From contig JAFAIO010000315.1 of the NCBI GenBank assembly GCA_019236675.1, positions 1-37,483 on the forward strand: a DNA stretch of 37,483 nt, written 5' to 3'. The notes beneath the pieces are model-generated. The model saw only the letters and a program-made list of their open reading frames with translations, was not told the DNA's origin and did no database searches. Both the position numbers and the translations under genes were made by a program. Positions 2,967 through 34,775 of the stretch are shown piece by piece. This DNA is from Verrucomicrobiota bacterium. GTDB taxonomy: Bacteria > Verrucomicrobiota > Verrucomicrobiia > Chthoniobacterales > JAFAMB01. Each line of letters begins with the position of its first letter. Within the stretch, counting starts at the first letter, position 1.

Positions 2967-5870
2967 TCAGGATCCCGCGCATTCGAACATTCTCCGCAAA
3001 TAGCGCCCTGTGTGGCTGGCTTCTACCTCGGCGATGTACTCCGGCGGACCTTGGGCAATGACCATTCCGCCTTCGACGCCGCCTTCTGGTCCGAGATCGA
3101 TGACCCAATCCGCGGTTTTGATTACCTCAAGGTTATGCTCAATGACGATTAGAGTGTTGCCTTGATTCCGAAGTTTTATCAGAACATCGAGGAGTTGGCG
3201 GATATCGGCGAAGTGAAGACCGGTCGTCGGTTCGTCCAGGATATACATTGTGCGTCCAGTCGCCTTTTTTGCGAGCTCCGCCGCTAATTTTACCCGTTGC
3301 GCTTCTCCTCCGGAAAGTTGGGTGCCGGATTGCCCCAGCGTCAGATAGCCCAGACCAACATCGACGAGCGGTTCCAATCGGTCATAGATCGCGGGCACAT
3401 TGCGGAAAAACCTGGCCGCCTCATCAACCGACATCGCCAGGATATCCGCGATGTTCTTTCCCCGATAGGTGATTTCCAGCGTCTCCCGGTTGTAGCGGGC
3501 GCCCCGGCAGATCTCACACTCAACGTAGACATCTGCGAGAAAGTGCATCTCGATTTTGATCACACCGTCGCCCTGACAATTCTCGCAGCGGCCTCCCTTC
3601 AGGTTAAAGCTAAACCGTCCGCTATCGTACCCGCGTATTCGGGCGGCCGGTAATTGGCTAAACAGCTCCCGAATTGGACCAAACGCGCCGGAGTAGGTCG
3701 CTGCATTCGAACGCGGCGTACGACCGATCGGACTTTGGTCGATGACGATTGCCTTGTCGACCTGGTCCAAGCCGAGTAGGCGATCGTGCGCACCCGGTTT
3801 ATCTTTGGATTGGTAAAAGTGCCGAAAGAGGGCACGCCGGAGGATATCGTCCACCAGGGTCGATTTACCGCTGCCGGAAACGCCGGTCACGCACACTAAA
3901 CAGCCTAAGGGAAACGATATGTTGAGATCCCGAAGGTTATTTTCCCGGGCGCCGGTTACCGTTAGCCAGCCTTCGGAGCCAGGCTCCGGCAGCCTGCCTC
4001 GGTTGTACAGGGTTCCGCGGGGCTGCACCCGGGATCGCGGTACCGGTATCTGGAGCGCTCCTTTAAGGTATTGGCCGGTGAGAGATTCTTCGCTCGATTC
4101 GATATCTGCCACTGAACCGGCTGCCACGATCTGACCTCCGCGGGGTCCGGCGCCTGGTCCGAGATCAATGACATAGTCGGCAGCTCGAATGGTGTCTTCG
4201 TCGTGCTCGACTACAACCACGGTATTCCCCATGTCACGGAGCCGTTTCAGGGTTTGGATCAGGCGGTCATTGTCGCGTTGATGGAGGCCGATGCTGGGCT
4301 CATCCAGTACATACAGAACGCCGGCCAATCCGGACCCGATTTGGGTGCCTAACCGGATACGCTGAGCTTCACCACCGGAAAGTGTTCCGCTCTCCCGATT
4401 CAACGTGAGATACCCGAGGCCTACCTCAGCCAAAAAACGTAACCGGGCTGTGATCTCCCTGAGCACTTCGGCAGCTACGTGTTTCTGATGCTTCGAAAGC
4501 GCGATTTCAGCAAGGAAACCCAACGAGTTTTCGATCGTTAACTGGCAAAATTGGTGGATGTTGACCTCAACACCCTTTGCGTTTTCGATCGTGACCGCAA
4601 GGATTTCCGGGCGTAAGCGGGCTCCGTTGCAAACTTCGCACGGCCGTCTGCCTTGGAAGCTCTTTAATCGGGCGCGAGTGAACTCGCTTTCGGTGTTTTT
4701 TCTCAGTTGTTCCAGCTGAGCCAAAACACCTTCGAAAGGTTTTTCGACATCCCGGCTTCCGAACTTGAATCGAAGCGCCAAGTCACCGGTGCCGTAGAGG
4801 ACAGCATCACGGCAATTTGCGGGCAAATCCGCAAACGGCGATTCCAGGTTACCTTTGTAAGCTTCAACCAGAGAGCCCAACAGGGCTTGATGGTAGGCAT
4901 GAATGCGTTTGCTCGCCTTGCGCCAGGGTGCGATCGCACCATCTCCCAAGGGTCGAGCCAAATCCGGGATCACCAACTCAGGATCGAAATAGCTGACAGA
5001 ACCAAGCCCTTGGCAATTCGGGCAAGCGCCGGCTAAGCTGTTGAAAGAGAAATGTTTGGGGGTCAGTTCCGGCAAAATGAACTCGGTCTTGGGATTACAA
5101 AATTCGGTCGAGTAGGCGAGTTCTTCCCAGTTTTCCGAGTTTGGCAGTTGCCGGCTGATCACGATGCGATTGCCGCCCCATTTTAACGCGGTGTCGATGG
5201 AATCGGCCAAGCGAGTGCGTACTCCTTCGCGCAACACCAACCGGTCAACGACGATCTCGATCGTATGCCGGCTATCTTTCGCCAGGCGGATTGGTTCCGG
5301 CCGGGCCAGCTCTAATATGTCTCCATCGACGCGGACTCGAACGAAGCCTTCTCGGCGGATCTTTTCCAGAACGTCGCGGAACTCTCCTATTTCGTGCCGG
5401 ACCACCGGAGCGATCACCAGAAACCTGGTTTCTTCCGGGTAAGTCAGAATTTGATCGACGATTTGCTGGGGCGTCTGTTTAAAGACTTTTTCTCCCGTAG
5501 CGGGATCGTGCGGTTGGCCGATTGCCGAAAAGAGCAGCCGCAGATAGTCATAAATTTCCGTCGTGGTTGCAATGGTTGATCGCGGGTTCGCGACCGATCC
5601 TCGCTGCTCAATGGCGATGGCCGGCGACAGACCCTCGATAAAGTCGACATCCGGCTTTTCCATCTTATCGAGAAATTGGCGGGCGTACGCAGAGAGACTT
5701 TCCACGTATCGACGTTGTCCTTCCGCGTACAGCGTATCAAAGGCGAGGGAGGACTTGCCCGATCCGCTCATACCGGTTATGACAACCAGTTTTTCTCGCG
5801 GAAACTCGACGTTAACTCCTTTAAGATTGTGCTGGCGAGCGCCTACAATGCGAATATTCTCCGCAGCCAT
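2967..5870 (-). CDS. uvrA: Excinuclease ABC subunit UvrA
   Basis: 967 aa; GMSGSGKSSLAFDTLYAEGQRRYVESLSAYARQFL, GSVSGSGKS-type second Walker A (GVSGSGKSTLV), LSGGEAQRI/LSGGEAQRV signatures, CxxC zinc motifs. Confidence 0.98.
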   Translation of the reverse strand: MAAENIRIVGARQHNLKGVNVEFPREKLVVITGMSGSGKSSLAFDTLYAEGQRRYVESLSAYARQFLDKMEKPDVDFIEGLSPAIAIEQRGSVANPRSTIATTTEIYDYLRLLFSAIGQPHDPATGEKVFKQTPQQIVDQILTYPEETRFLVIAPVVRHEIGEFRDVLEKIRREGFVRVRVDGDILELARPEPIRLAKDSRHTIEIVVDRLVLREGVRTRLADSIDTALKWGGNRIVISRQLPNSENWEELAYSTEFCNPKTEFILPELTPKHFSFNSLAGACPNCQGLGSVSYFDPELVIPDLARPLGDGAIAPWRKASKRIHAYHQALLGSLVEAYKGNLESPFADLPANCRDAVLYGTGDLALRFKFGSRDVEKPFEGVLAQLEQLRKNTESEFTRARLKSFQGRRPCEVCNGARLRPEILAVTIENAKGVEVNIHQFCQLTIENSLGFLAEIALSKHQKHVAAEVLREITARLRFLAEVGLGYLTLNRESGTLSGGEAQRIRLGTQIGSGLAGVLYVLDEPSIGLHQRDNDRLIQTLKRLRDMGNTVVVVEHDEDTIRAADYVIDLGPGAGPRGGQIVAAGSVADIESSEESLTGQYLKGALQIPVPRSRVQPRGTLYNRGRLPEPGSEGWLTVTGARENNLRDLNISFPLGCLVCVTGVSGSGKSTLVDDILRRALFRHFYQSKDKPGAHDRLLGLDQVDKAIVIDQSPIGRTPRSNAATYSGAFGPIRELFSQLPAARIRGYDSGRFSFNLKGGRCENCQGDGVIKIEMHFLADVYVECEICRGARYNRETLEITYRGKNIADILAMSVDEAARFFRNVPAIYDRLEPLVDVGLGYLTLGQSGTQLSGGEAQRVKLAAELAKKATGRTMYILDEPTTGLHFADIRQLLDVLIKLRNQGNTLIVIEHNLEVIKTADWVIDLGPEGGVEGGMVIAQGPPEYIAEVEASHTGRYLRRMFECAGS

Positions 5871-6112
5871 CGGTTCAAAACCCGTAAACTACCACCAAAG
5901 CACAAGACGACGGGCGGGACCAGCGGTTTTCGGCGGAAGGAGCCAGGAGGGGAATCTCTGCCTTATGGAAACCGTGGGCTCCGCGAACAAATAGGACTTA
6001 TGCGACCGATGAGATCTATGTGTTCAGGCCCCATGACTCTCATGAGCCACATCAGTTCTCGGCGCCCACATCACATACTGTCGTGGCATGTCGACACGCC
6101 CACACCCCTCCT

Positions 6113-6140
6113 AGCTCCTAGATTCTAGCTCCTAGGTCCT
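6113..6140. repeat. AGCTCCT heptamer array
   Basis: agctcct-agattct-agctcct-aggtcct in 7-bp register, same words as at 20024, 26212, 30172 and 30403. Confidence 0.8.
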
Positions 6141-7627: not shown

Positions 7628-7841
7628 TTGGATCGTCCTCGTACTCGTCCTCGACTTGGGGTGCACGTGGCCTCAATCGTGGCTATGGATCGGGCCCGCT
7701 CCAAACACAATAGTCCCATTTGTCCCATAAGTCCCATCCGTTGCACGTCTGAAGGTGTTGTTCCTGCTCGGAGCGCAGTGACATGGAGAACCCCGCCCAA
7801 ATCGAGGACGAGGACGACGACGAGGACGAGTACGATATGGG
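7628..7841. repeat. About 210-bp composite element: inverted GAGGACGA arrays flanking a GTCCCATNN array
   Basis: Left tcgtcctcgtactcgtcctcgacttggg, centre gtcccatttgtcccataagtcccatccg, right atcgaggacgaggacgacgacgaggacgagtacga. Same architecture at 23465-23677. Confidence 0.85.
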
Positions 7842-16518: not shown

Positions 16519-17736
16519 ATGAACCAGCAGTTGTTGCTTAACATCTACGAGAAGATAGAAGCTTTGGTCGGCCGTCTTCCTGGGCCGTTGCAAAGCGCGG
16601 TGCTGAACGAGCTGCGGCCGATCAAGCAGATCTTTATCGCCCAACGCCCGGCCCGCCTCGCTTTACTTGGTCAAGCATCCGCGAATGCCTCCGCCCTTTT
16701 GTCGGCGCTACTCGGTTCCGAGCTTAAATTGATTGATTCCAACCAGAGCGCAGGCTGGGTCAGTTACGAACAGAAAGTCAAAGGTGGGTTCCGCGTACTA
16801 GACGCGCGCCAGCTAAATCAAAGCAGTCGGTCTTGGGCTGATCTGACGAATGTTCTTGCGGAGGAAGCGCCCGACCTCTGTCTGTTCTTGGTAGATGGAA
16901 ATACGCCGGGCAACCTTCTTGCCTACAATGAACACACCATTCGGGTATTGGACTTTGTTCGCGAGCGCTACGATCGCAAGGTCCCGCTGATCGGTGTCAT
17001 CGATTTCCCGGCAACAATTCCACAGGAAGCCGTTGATAAACGCCGTCTGGAGCTACAGTCATGGCTCAGCGGTCAAGGAGGGATCGCCTCTCACTTTGTC
17101 CGAGCTGTGGCAGTATCTTCCTTTGTCCGGTTTCGTCAGGACGGTACCCTTGATCCGGAGCGCGACGAAAGACGAAACATTCGCATGTTAGGTGATTTAT
17201 TGGCGCGGGAATTGCCGGATGAAGCGCAAGTTGACATGGCGCGTCTGGTTGGAGCCAAAGAGCTACAGACTGAGCTATCGATGCGTCTGGTACGATCGGT
17301 GACGGCGATCTGTGCCGCCGTTGGTGCGCAGCCGATCCCTTTAGCGGATTTTCCAGTTTTAACCACGTTGCAGTTCGCGATGGTGGCCGGTGTAATGCAC
17401 ATCGGCGGCCGTGAGCTCAGTTTAAGGGCTGCCGCTGAATTCGTGGGCGCCTTGGGAATGAATATAGGCGTCGGGATGGTCTTTCGCGAAGGTGCCCGAG
17501 CAGCGGTCAAAGTTTTGCCCGGTTGGGGTAATGCCATCTCCGGAGGGATCGCCGCTGCCGGTACGTATGGAATCGGACGAGCGGCGACCTCTTACTTCAT
17601 CGACGGGTTGGCACTCGCCGACGTTCGCCGCTTCCTTGGCCGGCGCCTCAAGCGCTGGAGAAAGCGAGGAGCCGCGGATTTAGAAGACGCGAAACAGGCC
17701 GAGACAAAGACCCGCGACCGTGACAAAGGGGTGTGA
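16519..17736 (+). CDS. DUF697/YcjF-like membrane protein with degenerate GTPase-like N-domain
   Basis: LALLGQASANASALLSALLGSEL sits where a P-loop would be; C-terminal hydrophobic region IPLADFPVLTTLQFAMVAGVMHIGG typical of DUF697. Confidence 0.7.
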   Translation: MNQQLLLNIYEKIEALVGRLPGPLQSAVLNELRPIKQIFIAQRPARLALLGQASANASALLSALLGSELKLIDSNQSAGWVSYEQKVKGGFRVLDARQLNQSSRSWADLTNVLAEEAPDLCLFLVDGNTPGNLLAYNEHTIRVLDFVRERYDRKVPLIGVIDFPATIPQEAVDKRRLELQSWLSGQGGIASHFVRAVAVSSFVRFRQDGTLDPERDERRNIRMLGDLLARELPDEAQVDMARLVGAKELQTELSMRLVRSVTAICAAVGAQPIPLADFPVLTTLQFAMVAGVMHIGGRELSLRAAAEFVGALGMNIGVGMVFREGARAAVKVLPGWGNAISGGIAAAGTYGIGRAATSYFIDGLALADVRRFLGRRLKRWRKRGAADLEDAKQAETKTRDRDKGV

Positions 17737-19239: not shown

Positions 19240-20032
19240 GACGGCTGTTCCCGGCGGTTCCTTCAACCCTGACTCCTTGCCCCGTATCCGCGAGATCCTG
19301 AATCGCGATAGGGAATGGAGTCTGTACGCTTTGGGTGATCTGGCGCTGGCGGAGGTTATGCATTGTGAGTGGCGCTTCAGTGCGGTTAATCCATCCGCCC
19401 TGACATTGTTTTATCGAGCCTTTGATCCTCCCGTTTTCTTCGCCATTGGCGCCGCTATGGCCTTAGAACGGCTTCTCGATCAGGCTCCGCTGCCTCCAAG
19501 GCTTTATCTGCATATTAGACCTGAGATTTTAGACTTAGTGTGTGCACGCTATCACCGAGTAACGACGAAGATGATGCAGAGGATGATCCTCCGGAGTGCC
19601 GCCTTGGCGGAATTCGCCGGCACTGAAATCATTTCAGCGAACGAATTGAATGAATTAGTCGAGCTCTACAATTGCCGCGACGGGAAGGAAAAAGAAGGAA
19701 CCTTCTTTTTGCCCGCTCAGGTGGAAGAAGGGATCTACTTTGGAGCCCGTTGCAACGGCCGGTTGGTGGCAGCAGCGGGAACGCATTTGATCAACCGGCG
19801 TGAGGGCGTTGCTGCCATTGGGAATGTTTTTTGTCTTCCCGCCTATCGCGGCAAAGGTCTGGGAGGCCGTGTGACCAGCGCGGTCGTTAACGCCCTGGTT
19901 AGAGAAGGCATCCAGACCATCGGCCTGAACGTTAGTCCCGAAAGCCCCGCAACGAGGCTTTATCACCGCCTCGGCTTCCGAGAAGCGTGTCGGTATGTAG
20001 AAGGAACGGCCGCAGGAAGAGCGAGGAGCTAG
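19229..20032 (+). CDS. GNAT-family N-acetyltransferase
   Basis: GNVFCLPAYRGKGLGGRVTSAVVNALVREG...LNVSPESPATRLYHRLGFRE. Stop TAG lies in the AGGAGCTAG terminus of the adjacent repeat. Confidence 0.88.
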   Translation: MTGETAVPGGSFNPDSLPRIREILNRDREWSLYALGDLALAEVMHCEWRFSAVNPSALTLFYRAFDPPVFFAIGAAMALERLLDQAPLPPRLYLHIRPEILDLVCARYHRVTTKMMQRMILRSAALAEFAGTEIISANELNELVELYNCRDGKEKEGTFFLPAQVEEGIYFGARCNGRLVAAAGTHLINRREGVAAIGNVFCLPAYRGKGLGGRVTSAVVNALVREGIQTIGLNVSPESPATRLYHRLGFREACRYVEGTAAGRARS

Positions 20033-20498
20033 AATCTAGGAGCTAGGACGGGGTGGGCGTGCAAGGTGAGGGTGGCTCTTGTGGAGCGCTGCCTCGCTTG
20101 CGAGGCCGATGCGGTCGGAGACTTGGTGGGGCGAGGGCCTGCCGCGCCGTAGGCTTGGCGAAGGCGGGCTCCCGAAAGACCTAACGGTTTTACCGGAGGT
20201 GATGTGTTCGAAGGGTTTGCTTCGGGTGGCTACACCAAGACGCTCGCCGAGCCGCGGACATATCGCGTGTTCTCACTTTATGTGGTGCCACATCCTAGAC
20301 CCGCGGCTCGGCGAGTTTACAGGCCTAACGTGGCGCTTGGTATCCAGGTCGTTTCTTCGCCCTGGCTTTGCGTATCGGCCGTGCGGGAGCCTCGCCCCAC
20401 CAGGTGTCCGACCTCATCGGCCTCGCTTGCGAGGCAGCGCTCCACAAGAGCCAGCCTGACCTTGCACACCCCCGCCCCTCCTAGCTCCTAACTCCTAG
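20024..20498. repeat. Large nested foldback element
   Basis: About 110-bp imperfect inverted arms (20024-20137 / 20388-20498) sharing agctagga...gtgcaaggt...ctcttgtggagcgctgcctcgcttgcgaggccgat...gtggggcgagg; inner ctcgccgagccgcgg / ccgcggctcggcgag. Confidence 0.92.
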
Positions 20499-23464: not shown

Positions 23465-23677
23465 CCCATATCGTCCTCGTCCGCGTCGTCGTCCTCGTCC
23501 TCGATTTGAGTTGGGTTTGTCCGAGCGCCGGTTTGTCGGTTAGGGGTCGCACGCGCCGACACATAAGTCCCATTTGTCCCATAAGTCCCATCCGTCCCAC
23601 GCCTGAACGTTTTGTCTCTCTCCCTAGGATGCCATTGAACAGCGCGCACCAATTCGAGGACGAGGACGAGTACGACA
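23465..23677. repeat. Second copy of GAGGACGA / GTCCCATNN composite element
   Basis: Left cgtcctcgtccgcgtcgtcgtcctcgtcctcgatttgag; centre acataagtcccatttgtcccataagtcccatccgtccca; right ttcgaggacgaggacgagtacga. Confidence 0.85.
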
Positions 23678-23683
23678 ATCTCT

Positions 23684-24281: not shown

Positions 24282-24427
24282 AGTAGTCAGTAATCAGTGA
24301 GTCAGTAATCAGTACAGAAGATGTTCGCGACCAACTGCTTACCGCTTACCGCTTACTGCTTACTGCTTACTGCTTACTGCTTACCGCTTGCTGCTTACTG
24401 AATACTGAATACTGAATACTGAATACT
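24282..24427. repeat. Heptamer tandem array (ACTGCTT)n-(ACTGAAT)4 with inverted partner
   Basis: 24334-24424: 13 consecutive 7-mers (actgctt/accgctt/gctgctt then actgaat x4); inverted related words agtagtcagtaatcagtgagtcagtaatcagtac at 24282-24315. Confidence 0.92.
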
Positions 24428-25905: not shown

Positions 25906-26246
25906 TGGTGGGGCGAGGGCGGGCGCGCGTAGGCTTTGCGAAGCCAGGCTCCCGAAAGGCTTGTCTCTTATCCCGAAGGGATTAAAGGACTAAGCCCGGG
26001 GTTTTAACCCCGGGGACACGCGATAAAATGCGTCCGCCCTCACAAGGGGCGGTAGAGATTTCATTTCGGACCCGGTTTTGACACCTGATCGCATCACATT
26101 GCGCTCTGCCGCCCCTTCAGGGCGGATCGCTTTTTTTCCCTACCCGGGGTTAAACCGGTTAAAACCCCGGGCTTAGTCCTTTAATCCCTTCGGGATAAGA
26201 CCGCCCTTCCAAGCTCCAAGCTCCTAGATTCCAGCTCCTGACTCCT
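25906..26246. repeat. Compound nested inverted-repeat element
   Basis: Perfect 44-bp arms 25966-26009 / 26157-26200 (tcttatcccgaagggattaaaggactaagcccggggttttaacc); inner arms tccgccctcacaaggggcggtagag / ctctgccgccccttcagggcgga; ends with agctcca-agctcct-agattcc-agctcct-gactcct. Confidence 0.95.
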
Positions 26247-28508: not shown

Positions 28509-29231
28509 TTATCCCCGGTTAGCTCCAGCCTGCTTACCCTCGGTTGAGTCAATATATGGCAGCGGCGTCTTCTTTAGCCCGAGCTCAGCGTCGAGAAGAT
28601 TGCGCAGCTGATCGATATTGTTCTTCAGCGCGTTATAAGACTCAATCAGAGTCAACGCCCCAGCGTGCAAAGCATACGTCGTGTCCGCGGTGGCTCCGCT
28701 TGCGGGTTGAGCCGCATTTGTCGAGGCGCGAACATCCATGCGGTTATAGCCCTGGTATTGATCAACGAGACGTTTCGCGAACATATAGGTTCGCACCAGG
28801 CTCGAACGCAGTTGATCATTCTCGATCAATCCAATTGTGCCCGCATTACGGTCAAACACGGAGAAGTAACTCTGATTGTAGGACCAGTACGGCAAAGGTT
28901 TTCGCTTGAGGTCCAAATTTTCAATTGGCCCGCCCAGATCCTCGGCCACAATTATCCAGAGCTGCAAAATCTCCTCGCGTAGAGCGTGCAGAGTTCCTAA
29001 AACTCGATCCCGATCAGATGTCCGATTACGTTGGCGTTCCGCTTCGGCCTGCTCGAACCGTGACTTGTTTACGTTTCGATAGGCGGCGTTGGCTGCGATC
29101 ACCGCTCCTCCCAAAGCGATGACGGCCGCTAACAGGATAGTAACTGCTTGCAGCCAAACCGAGGGCCCAAGTTGTGAAAAGAACTGGGATAGAGAACTCC
29201 AAATCTGGTTTGTTAAAAGATGGGCGTCCAT
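28509..29231 (-). CDS. Membrane-anchored hypothetical protein
   Basis: N-terminal TM VWLQAVTILLAAVIALGGAVIAANAAY followed by helical region. Confidence 0.7.
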   Translation of the reverse strand: MDAHLLTNQIWSSLSQFFSQLGPSVWLQAVTILLAAVIALGGAVIAANAAYRNVNKSRFEQAEAERQRNRTSDRDRVLGTLHALREEILQLWIIVAEDLGGPIENLDLKRKPLPYWSYNQSYFSVFDRNAGTIGLIENDQLRSSLVRTYMFAKRLVDQYQGYNRMDVRASTNAAQPASGATADTTYALHAGALTLIESYNALKNNIDQLRNLLDAELGLKKTPLPYIDSTEGKQAGANRG

Positions 29232-30171
29232 GAGCTACCGCGATCTTGGCTTTTTCGCCGTAATTGTTCAGCTTTTTTTTGCTCTAGCGAGCGCACTAGC
29301 GAGCGAGTCGCCCGAGATCATCGATTTGATTCCCCAGGAGCTGCACCTGGTAACCAGCTTGTCCGGGGACACCGACACCCGGGTTGAACGTTTTTCTAAT
29401 CAGATTCTTGCGAGAGAACCAGAAGTTTATCAGCACCTTTGGCACTTCGATTCGGCGAAGGTCAAGGCTTTCGTGGCAAAAGTGCCGGAATACATTTCCG
29501 GGATTCGAAAGTTGCACGCTTTGTTCGAGCAGCAGGAACCAACAATACTCGGTCGTTTTTGTCAGGCTTTCCCGGAATTCGCCCCGGGAAAGGTCAAGAT
29601 CTACTTGATGCTCTCTCTCTTCCAGTTCGATGCCAAGATCCCGAGCGAGCATCCGGACTCGCTGCTAATAGGATTAGACGGGTTAGCCCGCTTCCATGGA
29701 ACCGATGCGCCGTTGGCGGTGATCCTTTCGCACGAATTCTTTCATCTCTATCATTTCCAGGTCAATCCGTTGCCGAAAAATCCGGACGACTTGCCCCTCT
29801 ATCGATTGCTCTGGCAGGAGGGACTGGCGGTCTATGCAAGCCAGCAACTCAATAGCGGAGCATCGTTGGCTGACGTCTTGCTTGACCCTCGACTAGCAAC
29901 AAACGGTCCCACGTCGGTCCGGGCCGAAGCAAAACGGCTCCTATTATGTCTGGACTCACGCGAGGACATCACGGCTGCGCATTTTCTCGCCAAAAGCGAA
30001 AACGGAGAAGTTCCCGGGAGAATCGGCTATCTCATCGGATATGATATAGCTGCCCGGTTAGCCCAGAAACGATCGCTGAGCGCCTTAGCCCGGCTCCGAG
30101 ACCCTGGCCTCCGCTTTGCCTTACACCGGGAGGTATATCGGCTGGCCTACGGCACGGCGACATCGCCGTGA
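29230..30171 (+). CDS. Secreted/lipo HExxH metallopeptidase-like protein
   Basis: Signal-like FFAVIVQLFFALASALASE; VILSHEFFHLYHF zinc motif followed by LLWQEGLAVYAS (candidate third ligand). Confidence 0.7.
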   Translation: MSYRDLGFFAVIVQLFFALASALASESPEIIDLIPQELHLVTSLSGDTDTRVERFSNQILAREPEVYQHLWHFDSAKVKAFVAKVPEYISGIRKLHALFEQQEPTILGRFCQAFPEFAPGKVKIYLMLSLFQFDAKIPSEHPDSLLIGLDGLARFHGTDAPLAVILSHEFFHLYHFQVNPLPKNPDDLPLYRLLWQEGLAVYASQQLNSGASLADVLLDPRLATNGPTSVRAEAKRLLLCLDSREDITAAHFLAKSENGEVPGRIGYLIGYDIAARLAQKRSLSALARLRDPGLRFALHREVYRLAYGTATSP

Positions 30172-30430
30172 AGGAGCTAGGAGCTAGAATCTAGGAGCTA
30201 GGAGGGACAGTGTGGTGTGGCGTCTCAGATCGTGAGCGTTCCCGAATCCTGCGCGCCGCAATCGGATGGGACCTATGGGACTCATACGACCAACGGGAAA
30301 TGAAAACATAAGTCCCATGAGTCCCATAGGTCCCATCGATTAGCAGCGCCTACCGCACCCTCATACCGGGCAGTGTGGAGATACCTTGCGGCTTTCCCTT
30401 CTAGCTCCTAGATCCCAGCTCCTAGCTCCT
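30172..30430. repeat. Nested inverted element: AGGAGCT outer arms, GTCCCATNN inner arms
   Basis: Outer 30172-30206 / 30397-30430; inner atcggatgggacctatgggactcat (30261) / atgagtcccataggtcccatcgat (30317). Confidence 0.93.
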
Positions 30431-30433
30431 ATC

Positions 30434-31246
30434 CTACTTCAACTGATAGCCGGCCTGCACCGCGGCATCCGAGAACGCTTTCCCGAGTTGCTGGGCTTTG
30501 GTAACAGCTTCTTTATCGTGGAACGAAAGGGTACCGTCAGGCTTACGTGTCCAAGAATTTTTGCTCTCCTTCAGAAAATCGACGTAAGCGGCCGTTGCGT
30601 CGGCGAATTTGCTCGTGTTCTGTGCCGTTTTCAGATCATCGGGTACGTTGCCTTGCTTAGCGAAAGCGTCGGCCACTTGGGTATTGAGCGGATCGGCCAC
30701 TCCAATATCGGCCAAGCGCTTGGCTAACTCATTTTGCACGTCTTGAAAAACGCCGACAGCGTCCTCCGAACTTTGTTTCAGGTGCATCGCTGCATCTCTG
30801 ATCTTTGCCAGATCGTCGTCGGTTTTAGCCTGAGCAAGTGGTTGAAAGATTAACGTCACCTGAGTGTTGGAATCGACCGTTTCCTTTTCTTTAGTTTTCG
30901 TGATCTTGTCCAGCTCATCGCTAAAGATGTTTAATATCTTCTTGTTTGTGTCCGAGAGAGTGCTGGCATTCACCTTCAACAAGTTGAGAAAATCATCCGG
31001 AGTTTTCAGCTCGCCGACAGCGCTGGCAGCGGCCGATGCTGAAGCGGATGCCGAAGCTTCAGCGTTGGCCTGGGCCATCGTCTTCCCTTGGCTTGTGGCC
31101 TGCGCGTACTTCATCAGGTTGATGAACGGCGCCGGATTAAGGAACAGGTAAACCAGCGCCGCGATCACGATCGCCATTACAATTAACGGCGCCATTCGCC
31201 CCAGGGAGCCGTGCGGCTTGTCAATTTGGGATTTTTTTAACTCCAT
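30434..31246 (-). CDS. Hypothetical membrane-anchored protein, Ala/Ser-rich segment
   Basis: TM MAPLIVMAIVIAALVYLFLNPA; low-complexity ANAEASASASASAAASAVGE. Confidence 0.65.
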   Translation of the reverse strand: MELKKSQIDKPHGSLGRMAPLIVMAIVIAALVYLFLNPAPFINLMKYAQATSQGKTMAQANAEASASASASAAASAVGELKTPDDFLNLLKVNASTLSDTNKKILNIFSDELDKITKTKEKETVDSNTQVTLIFQPLAQAKTDDDLAKIRDAAMHLKQSSEDAVGVFQDVQNELAKRLADIGVADPLNTQVADAFAKQGNVPDDLKTAQNTSKFADATAAYVDFLKESKNSWTRKPDGTLSFHDKEAVTKAQQLGKAFSDAAVQAGYQLK

Positions 31247-34602: not shown

Positions 34603-34775
34603 CACAATACGGAAAGATCACAAAGGTCACAAAGACAGAAGAACTGACCGTCCTACAGATTTAGAGGAAGACGATTATACCTACGCACTTCCGGCTCTGT
34701 ACAACCCTGACGACCTGGTCCTGAAGATACGGCAAGGTTATCTTTGTGATCTTTGTGATCTTTCCGTATTGTGCG
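34603..34775. repeat. Inverted repeat with 9-bp GATCACAAA words
   Basis: cacaatacggaaagatcacaaaggtcacaaaga / tctttgtgatctttgtgatctttccgtattgtg, one apparent mismatch. Confidence 0.9.

Follow-up and report, generated by a model that had tools for sequence, protein, structure and literature searches.

The inverted repeat at 30172-30430 of a Verrucomicrobiota contig combines two independent repeat families in a two-layer intergenic mosaic

The gap between two convergent ORFs of a Verrucomicrobiota genome is filled exactly by an inverted repeat composed of two layers, an AGGAGCT pair outside and a pair of GTCCCATNN words inside. Taken singly, this locus (30172-30430) resembles a perfect bidirectional terminator. 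Is it a signal serving the neighbouring genes, a copy of one duplicated composite, or an assembly of parts that exist independently of each other? We addressed this question in the window, by which we mean the whole analysed stretch of 37,483 nucleotides, and in the genome to which it belongs. The window corresponds to contig C214 in the metagenome-assembled genome (MAG; G000) of an uncultured bacterium of soil type, an incomplete assembly (85%) of 5.87 Mb in 565 contigs.

Architecture of the element

The earlier note had described an outer inverted pair of 7-bp words in register, enclosing a near-perfect inverted pair of about 24 bp made of 9-bp words, and both parts of this description were borne out (Table 1). 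The outer arms (30172-30210 and 30392-30430) are complementary at 90% over 39 nt, and in 7-bp register the left one reads AGGAGCT AGGAGCT AGAATCT AGGAGCT AGGAGG. Since the deviating AGAATCT word recurs at the same arm position in most other AGGAGCT copies, the arm has a fixed sequence, about 34 bp long, and is not a free tandem array. The inner pair, ATGGGACCTATGGGACTCAT (30266-30285) and ATGAGTCCCATAGGTCCCAT (30317-30336), is perfect across 20 nt and near-perfect across about 24 nt with one 1-nt bulge; it can be extended to 30253-30290 and 30312-30349 (38 nt, 82%). Folded as single-stranded DNA, the element reaches -74.6 kcal/mol (z = -9.3 relative to dinucleotide shuffles). The stretch 30172-30430 is an intergenic mosaic with two layers, each from an independent repeat family: arms of about 34 bp of the AGGAGCT family surround a smaller GTCCYATNN module.

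Table 1. Parts of the element at 30172-30430, its neighbours and related elements of the window
Feature	Coordinates	Strand	Remark
Outer left arm, AGGAGCT family (AGGAGCTAGGAGCTAGAATCTAGGAGCTAGGAGG)	30172..30205	+	
Outer right arm, inverted AGGAGCT copy	30397..30430	-	3 mismatches to consensus
Inner left arm	30266..30285	-	two minus-strand GTCCCATNN words
Inner right arm ACATAAGTCCCATGAGTCCCATAGGTCCCATCG	30306..30338	+	three 9-bp words; fits family consensus CACATAAGTCCCATnnGTCCCAT..GTCCCATCCGT
Left spacer, outer to inner arm	30206..30265		no counterpart in other AGGAGCT elements except a short stretch beside the inner module
Right spacer, inner to outer arm	30339..30396		likewise mostly unique
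Flanking ORF, weak DUF2268 (predicted Zn protease) match	29089..30171	+	stop directly before outer left arm
Flanking convergent ORF, no Pfam match	30434..31246	-	stop just past outer right arm
TCGTCC/GAGGAC arms around GTCCCATNN array (7713-7737)	7633..7835	.	
TCGTCC/GAGGAC arms around GTCCCATNN array (23567-23593)	23471..23680	.	
AGGAGCT arms enclosing additional nested inverted repeats (GTGGAGCGCTGCCTCGC, GGTGGGGCGAGG..CTCCCG, GCTCGCCGAGCCGCGG)	20024..20498	.	
Lone unpaired AGGAGCT arm	6108..6140	-	

The inner words had also been reported within arms near positions 7628 and 23465. At both places GTCCCATNN arrays do lie between GAGGAC-word arms, but the array is on the right side only. Other gaps of the window hold repeats of different kinds. 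At 34609-34764, inverted arms of 9-bp words (GATCACAAAGGTCACAAAG / CTTTGTGATCTTTGTGATC) enclose about 100 bp, and a similar pair occurs in a neighbouring gap of the congeneric genome G002. A single gap (24285-24427) carries long heptamer arrays of AGTAATC, ACTGCTT and TACTGAA, which are shorter in G003, another genome of the genus, and almost lacking in G002. A palindromic element of about 230 bp at 25967-26202 (TTATCCCGAAGGGATTAAAGG..CCGGGGTTTTAACC) has many copies in G002 and G003, and REPs related to it flank a truncated RAYT gene in stretch L004.

Pairing and exchange of layers

The observation as a whole is real and goes beyond chance. Genome-wide, there are 80 occurrences of GTCCYATNNGTCCYAT (GTCCYAT doublets), 234 of AGGAGCTAGGAG (AGGAGCT 12-mers) and 187 of CGAGGACGAGGACGA, as opposed to 0, 1 and 0 for the respective reversed-pattern controls. 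The GAGGAC-type arm, a 28-mer (CGAGGACGAGGACGACGACGAGGACGAG), has 84 copies in this genome at up to 2 mismatches. Pairing was analysed in a catalogue sample of about 0.63 Mb in stretches (L-numbers), with genes called by a simple codon-bias script; because the contigs were mostly picked for having a GTCCCAT site, frequencies in the catalogue are conditional. A search with the 34-bp consensus, allowing up to 9 mismatches, identified 62 AGGAGCT arms in this sample, forming 21 inward and no outward pairs with spans of 134-379 bp, while about a third of the arms are unpaired. For ten word families, set by eye from the sequences and searched as word patterns, the corresponding numbers are 69 inward pairs and 0 outward. 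Strong inverted repeats, defined as those above the 99th percentile of shuffles, are present in 58% of 240 intergenic gaps of 100-700 bp, compared with 1% for shuffled sequences and 3% for coding pieces of equal length. Elements of this sort occupy more than half of the intergenic gaps in the genome.

The gaps are small and crowded, so that two families might merely share them and assume a concentric order by chance. Yet enclosure clearly exceeds random intergenic placement. When GTCCCAT sites were re-placed within the intergenic DNA of the same stretch, 1.36 of them were expected inside AGGAGCT pairs, whereas 6 are observed (P<=0.0015); for the pairs of any family, the numbers are 3.0 expected and 13 observed (P<=0.0005). 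The same follows from a test that requires no word definitions, in which the left flank of each inner site was aligned to the reverse complement of the right flank: matching inverted arms were found at 47% of 51 inner sites, but only for 9.5% of mismatched left/right flanks. Coincidence is, in our estimate, scarcely credible.

The earlier note had further proposed that inner and outer modules are exchangeable between elements, to be checked by cataloguing their combinations and by comparing syntenic loci, and had named fixed combinations derived from a single duplicated sequence as the outcome that would speak against it. Exchange is supported by the matched arms just described and by the catalogue, in which GTCCCAT arrays are enclosed by at least six unrelated outer families (AGGAGCT, TCGTCC, GGTTAGC, AAGCAGT, GGCGAAA and GTGAAAG). 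Where the counts, which are small, allow a test within the 0.63 Mb, combinations of inner and outer modules do not depart from random (p = 0.55). Size alone imposes one restriction: pairs with an interior below 60 bp never contain a GTCCCAT module. AGGAGCT interiors, in turn, hold GTCCCAT modules, AGTAATC/AAGCAGT heptamers, GGCGAAA words, GGTGGGGCGAGGCTCCCG hairpins, CTCCGTAGGAGCGACAT, others, or none that we recognised. BLAST comparisons among these interiors recover mainly the inner module, with no sharing of the sequence that separates it from the arms. Because homology is largely confined to the module, the GTCCCAT-bearing AGGAGCT elements do not descend from a single duplicated composite; the non-homologous spacers rule out such an origin, and the combinations are many rather than fixed.

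Layers may also number three, as in L055 near 5484-5848 (AAGCAGT, AGGAGCT and GTCCCAT, from outside inwards) and in L059 near 16792-17156 (AAGCAGT, TCGTCC and GTCCCAT). At L088 1228-1478 AGGAGCT lies outside AAGCAGT-type words, reversing the order seen at L055, and thus the order of layers is not fixed. On the other hand, GTCCCAT is the innermost layer in every catalogued case, and the exchange between inner and outer modules is therefore not fully symmetric. The GTCCCAT module itself is asymmetric too: its right array fits CACATAAGTCCCATnnGTCCCAT..GTCCCATCCGT, whereas the mirrored left word is present in only about a third of the copies. Exchangeability nevertheless reaches far beyond the AGGAGCT and GTCCCAT families.

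Orthologous gaps in related genomes

We compared the gaps with those of three other genomes, all fragmented MAGs like G000, of which G002 and G003 belong to the same genus and G001 is more distant. The blocks and genes flanking the gaps of the window are mostly 82-89% identical in G002 and G003, whereas most gap interiors (window, L084 and L088) have no homology to the orthologous gap. The gap orthologous to 30172-30430 contains an unrelated nested inverted repeat in G002 (GGTAGGGCGACGCTCCCGA / TCGGGAGCCTCGCCCTACC), with a counterpart in G003, and is only short in G001; an empty precursor of the element was not seen in any of these three genomes. Filled gaps that are short or empty in another genome do occur, at L088 10961, L088 15623 and L084 8238. 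At the first of these, near an ORF start, G002 and G003 have a 75-100 bp element with a 20-bp TIR (AGCCTGCATTTCTCACAGCA) that G000 lacks.

The most instructive loci are those where one layer is retained. At L088 14101-14304, G000 and G003 share the AGGAGCT arms but not the interior, which is a CTCCGTAGGAGCGACAT hairpin in G000 and a module of GTCCCAT type in G003; this difference supports the exchangeability of modules. At L088 6446-6608, G003 carries the 104-bp interior in inverted orientation (92% identity), the GGCGA-word and GGTAGGGCGAAAA arms are retained, and the space between them has gained another module (CTCGGCGCGCCGAG .. CGCCGGTTTTGAGCC). An inverted interior is likewise found in G002 at L084 6125-6264, beside a retained AGGAGCT left arm. 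Conversely, the G003 orthologue of 23471-23680 keeps the GTCCCAT array and one GAGGAC arm and has GGTTAGC-type arms outside. This suggests that outer layers may also differ around a shared inner layer, a pattern that fits accretion as well as insertion.

These comparisons bear directly on whether the hairpins could be transcription terminators or structured RNAs, including those of mRNA 3' ends, with structure selected and sequence drifting. The very stable fold of 30172-30430, its placement exactly between convergent genes and the presence of another hairpin in several orthologous gaps are all in line with this idea. However, the occurrence of word pairs in a gap is not biased with respect to gene orientation (chi-square p = 0.63), and divergent gaps (0.55) are as rich in strong inverted repeats as tandem ones (0.56), with 0.64 for convergent gaps; the position after stop codons with a convergent bias, characteristic of intrinsic terminators, was not found. 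Nor is presence retained: orthologous gaps have a strong inverted repeat in 11 of 24 cases where G000 has one and in 9 of 19 where it lacks one. A search of the window against Rfam yielded no match. Since gene arrangement is irrelevant and the presence of a hairpin is not conserved at orthologous gaps, a terminator or a fixed regulatory RNA is very unlikely, and a bidirectional terminator was rejected on the same grounds. It would accordingly be a mistake to annotate strong, stable hairpins in such genomes as conserved RNAs or terminators. The elements described here are fast-changing mosaic repeats and not fixed gene switches: most gaps of the genome hold layered, exchangeable inverted repeats that mostly differ in congeners despite the high identity of most blocks, so that genes are kept while layers are swapped, flipped and replaced.

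Origin, known systems and distribution

How might such layers arise? With 34-bp inverted arms that point strictly inward and spans in the range given above, the AGGAGCT arms could be taken for TIRs of a cut-and-paste element, i.e. for MITEs of a classical DDE transposon. However, no signal of target-site duplication (TSD) was detected beyond mismatched-flank controls, which disfavours DDE transposition and is expected for HUH-type movement. In addition, the interiors are non-homologous between copies, unlike in a MITE family, and among the listed coordinates we noticed no longer AGGAGCT pair around a transposase gene. The missing TSD led us to reject MITEs of this type as highly improbable.

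Growth in place deserves more attention. Replication slippage would build arrays of 6-9 bp words and template switching would copy them across the hairpin, making the layers local products. Consistent with this, the arms are tandem words with periods of 6-9, the lengths of left and right arrays are weakly correlated within families (r = 0.31, P = 0.019), the interior inversions fit template switching and TSDs are lacking. Yet slippage cannot independently make the fixed arms of 28-34 bp that recur at scores of loci (AGGAGCT with its AGAATCT word, or the 84 copies of CGAGGACGAGGACGACGACGAGGACGAG), and many inner modules lack a tandem-word structure altogether. We therefore regard growth in place as possible but doubtful.

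We consider it probable, if only by a modest measure, that the elements form an intergenic mosaic resembling REPINs and Neisserial intergenic mosaic elements (NIME), the interiors being sites of insertion and recombination. Interiors change while arms stay, which argues that a resident hairpin is both a target of insertion and a site of recombination. Palindromic units may act as non-autonomous mobile DNA that spreads without duplicating its target, and new units would land preferentially in a hairpin already in place, probably at times when this is extruded or single-stranded. Interiors could be flipped and swapped when the arms recombine or when the replication template is switched from one arm to the other, and insertion together with arm exchange would give rise to concentric layers. 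The elements would be mainly selfish or neutral, no host function being needed. An unlikely variant is a hitherto undescribed mobile-repeat system of Verrucomicrobiota, in which an enzyme inserts palindromes specifically at the centres of existing hairpins or writes templated 6-9 bp arrays on both sides, turning gaps into layered combinatorial palindromes with a turnover faster than that of genes. Insertion at hairpin centres, arm-mediated inversion and the origin of word arrays are directly testable in natural strains.

RAYT/HUH-type transposases act on hairpins of single-stranded DNA and are the leading candidates for the mobilising enzyme. The MAG contains seven Y1_Tnp (RAYT-like) loci, but at these 7 inspected loci (in an assembly 85% complete) no flanking AGGAGCT or GTCCCAT repeats were found. 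Hence, no enzyme can be tied to either family, and the enzyme step is one that we infer. Ownership by a RAYT was rejected for both families, as the flanks of the seven genes carry other repeats. Three of the loci (L001, L002 and L005) are readable on both sides and have REP-like flanking repeats of three different types (GTCCCGTAGGGAC, CCTAGGGC.GCCCTAGG and GGAGGGGCGTTGCA). The RAYT gene of L002 lies inside word-type arms (GGTTAGC) and that of L005, less clearly, inside GTGAAAG arms, the left one being weak. At L002, and likely at L005, a whole transposon stands where GTCCCAT modules sit elsewhere.

Several known systems share features with these elements, and REP dimers inserted within palindromes, as well as RAYT-like genes between unrelated TIRs, set a precedent for the reading we favour (PMC3733652). 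REP dimers inside palindromes have been described in A. variabilis, T. roseum and H. neapolitanus, and REPs have been reported in the verrucomicrobium Opitutus terrae (PMC3116915, PMC3733652). REPINs, or REP dimers, are likewise intergenic, multicopy and hairpin-forming, with inward inverted arms and a variable spacer. Here, however, the arms are tandem 7- or 9-bp words, the interiors are unrelated between copies, several families are concentric and no RAYT is linked to AGGAGCT or GTCCCAT. By inspection, neither a GTAG/CGTC-tagged palindrome nor a REP-type internal stem is evident in the arm consensus AGGAGCTAGGAGCTAGAATCTAGGAGCTAGGAGG or the inner consensus. RAYT-like genes flanked by unrelated TIRs are known as TIRYT elements (PMC3733652). 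L002, and probably L005, are similar to them, having a Y1 transposase with its own repeats within unrelated inverted arms, whereas AGGAGCT and GTCCCAT elements contain no gene.

In NIME, 20-bp dRS3 repeats with 6-bp inverted ends are combined with RS units and occur in long arrays (PMC3898611). The likeness consists in intergenic mosaics that join conserved short repeats to unrelated units which can be exchanged, and extends to serving as a recombination substrate; the differences are the concentric modules and the word-array arms of about 34 bp found here. The dRS3 motif (ATTCCC-N8-GGGAAT) is absent from the arm consensus. Cyanobacterial STRRs and TAACTGA repeats are intergenic direct repeats of heptamers. 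The TAACTGA repeats are located mostly upstream of start codons (PMC4679880). Tandem intergenic heptamers, with a variant word sometimes splitting the run, are common to both, but here they form inverted pairs around other modules and show no preference for a gene arrangement. In the open-access literature, we found no paper on nested inverted repeats in bacterial intergenic DNA, and none of the accounts of REPIN/RAYT, TIRYT, NIME or TAACTGA includes several tandem-word families stacked concentrically with exchange of interiors.

Amplification of AGGAGCT arms is confined to this genus (234, 105, 80 and 4 copies). One other family has tandem runs in a few of its genomes, and an arm 25-mer has exact matches in MAGs of Verrucomicrobiota, in strain IMCC26134, and in one MAG each of Opitutaceae and Planctomycetota; the assignment of the present genome to its phylum is based on these matches. 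No copy of the GAGGAC arm (28-mer, 2 mismatches) was found in 58 further Verrucomicrobiota genomes. The GTCCYATNN word has a scattered occurrence in the phylum and is amplified in G131 (185), G196 (103), G201 (20) and a few others, with controls near zero; in G131 it again occurs among other word families in intergenic DNA. The 9-bp GTCCTATNN words are amplified in the same three distant Verrucomicrobiota, G131 (L205-L214), G196 and G201 (L215-L223). In G201 they are often located shortly downstream of stop codons, and the variable NN dinucleotide of the word is kept across the phylum.
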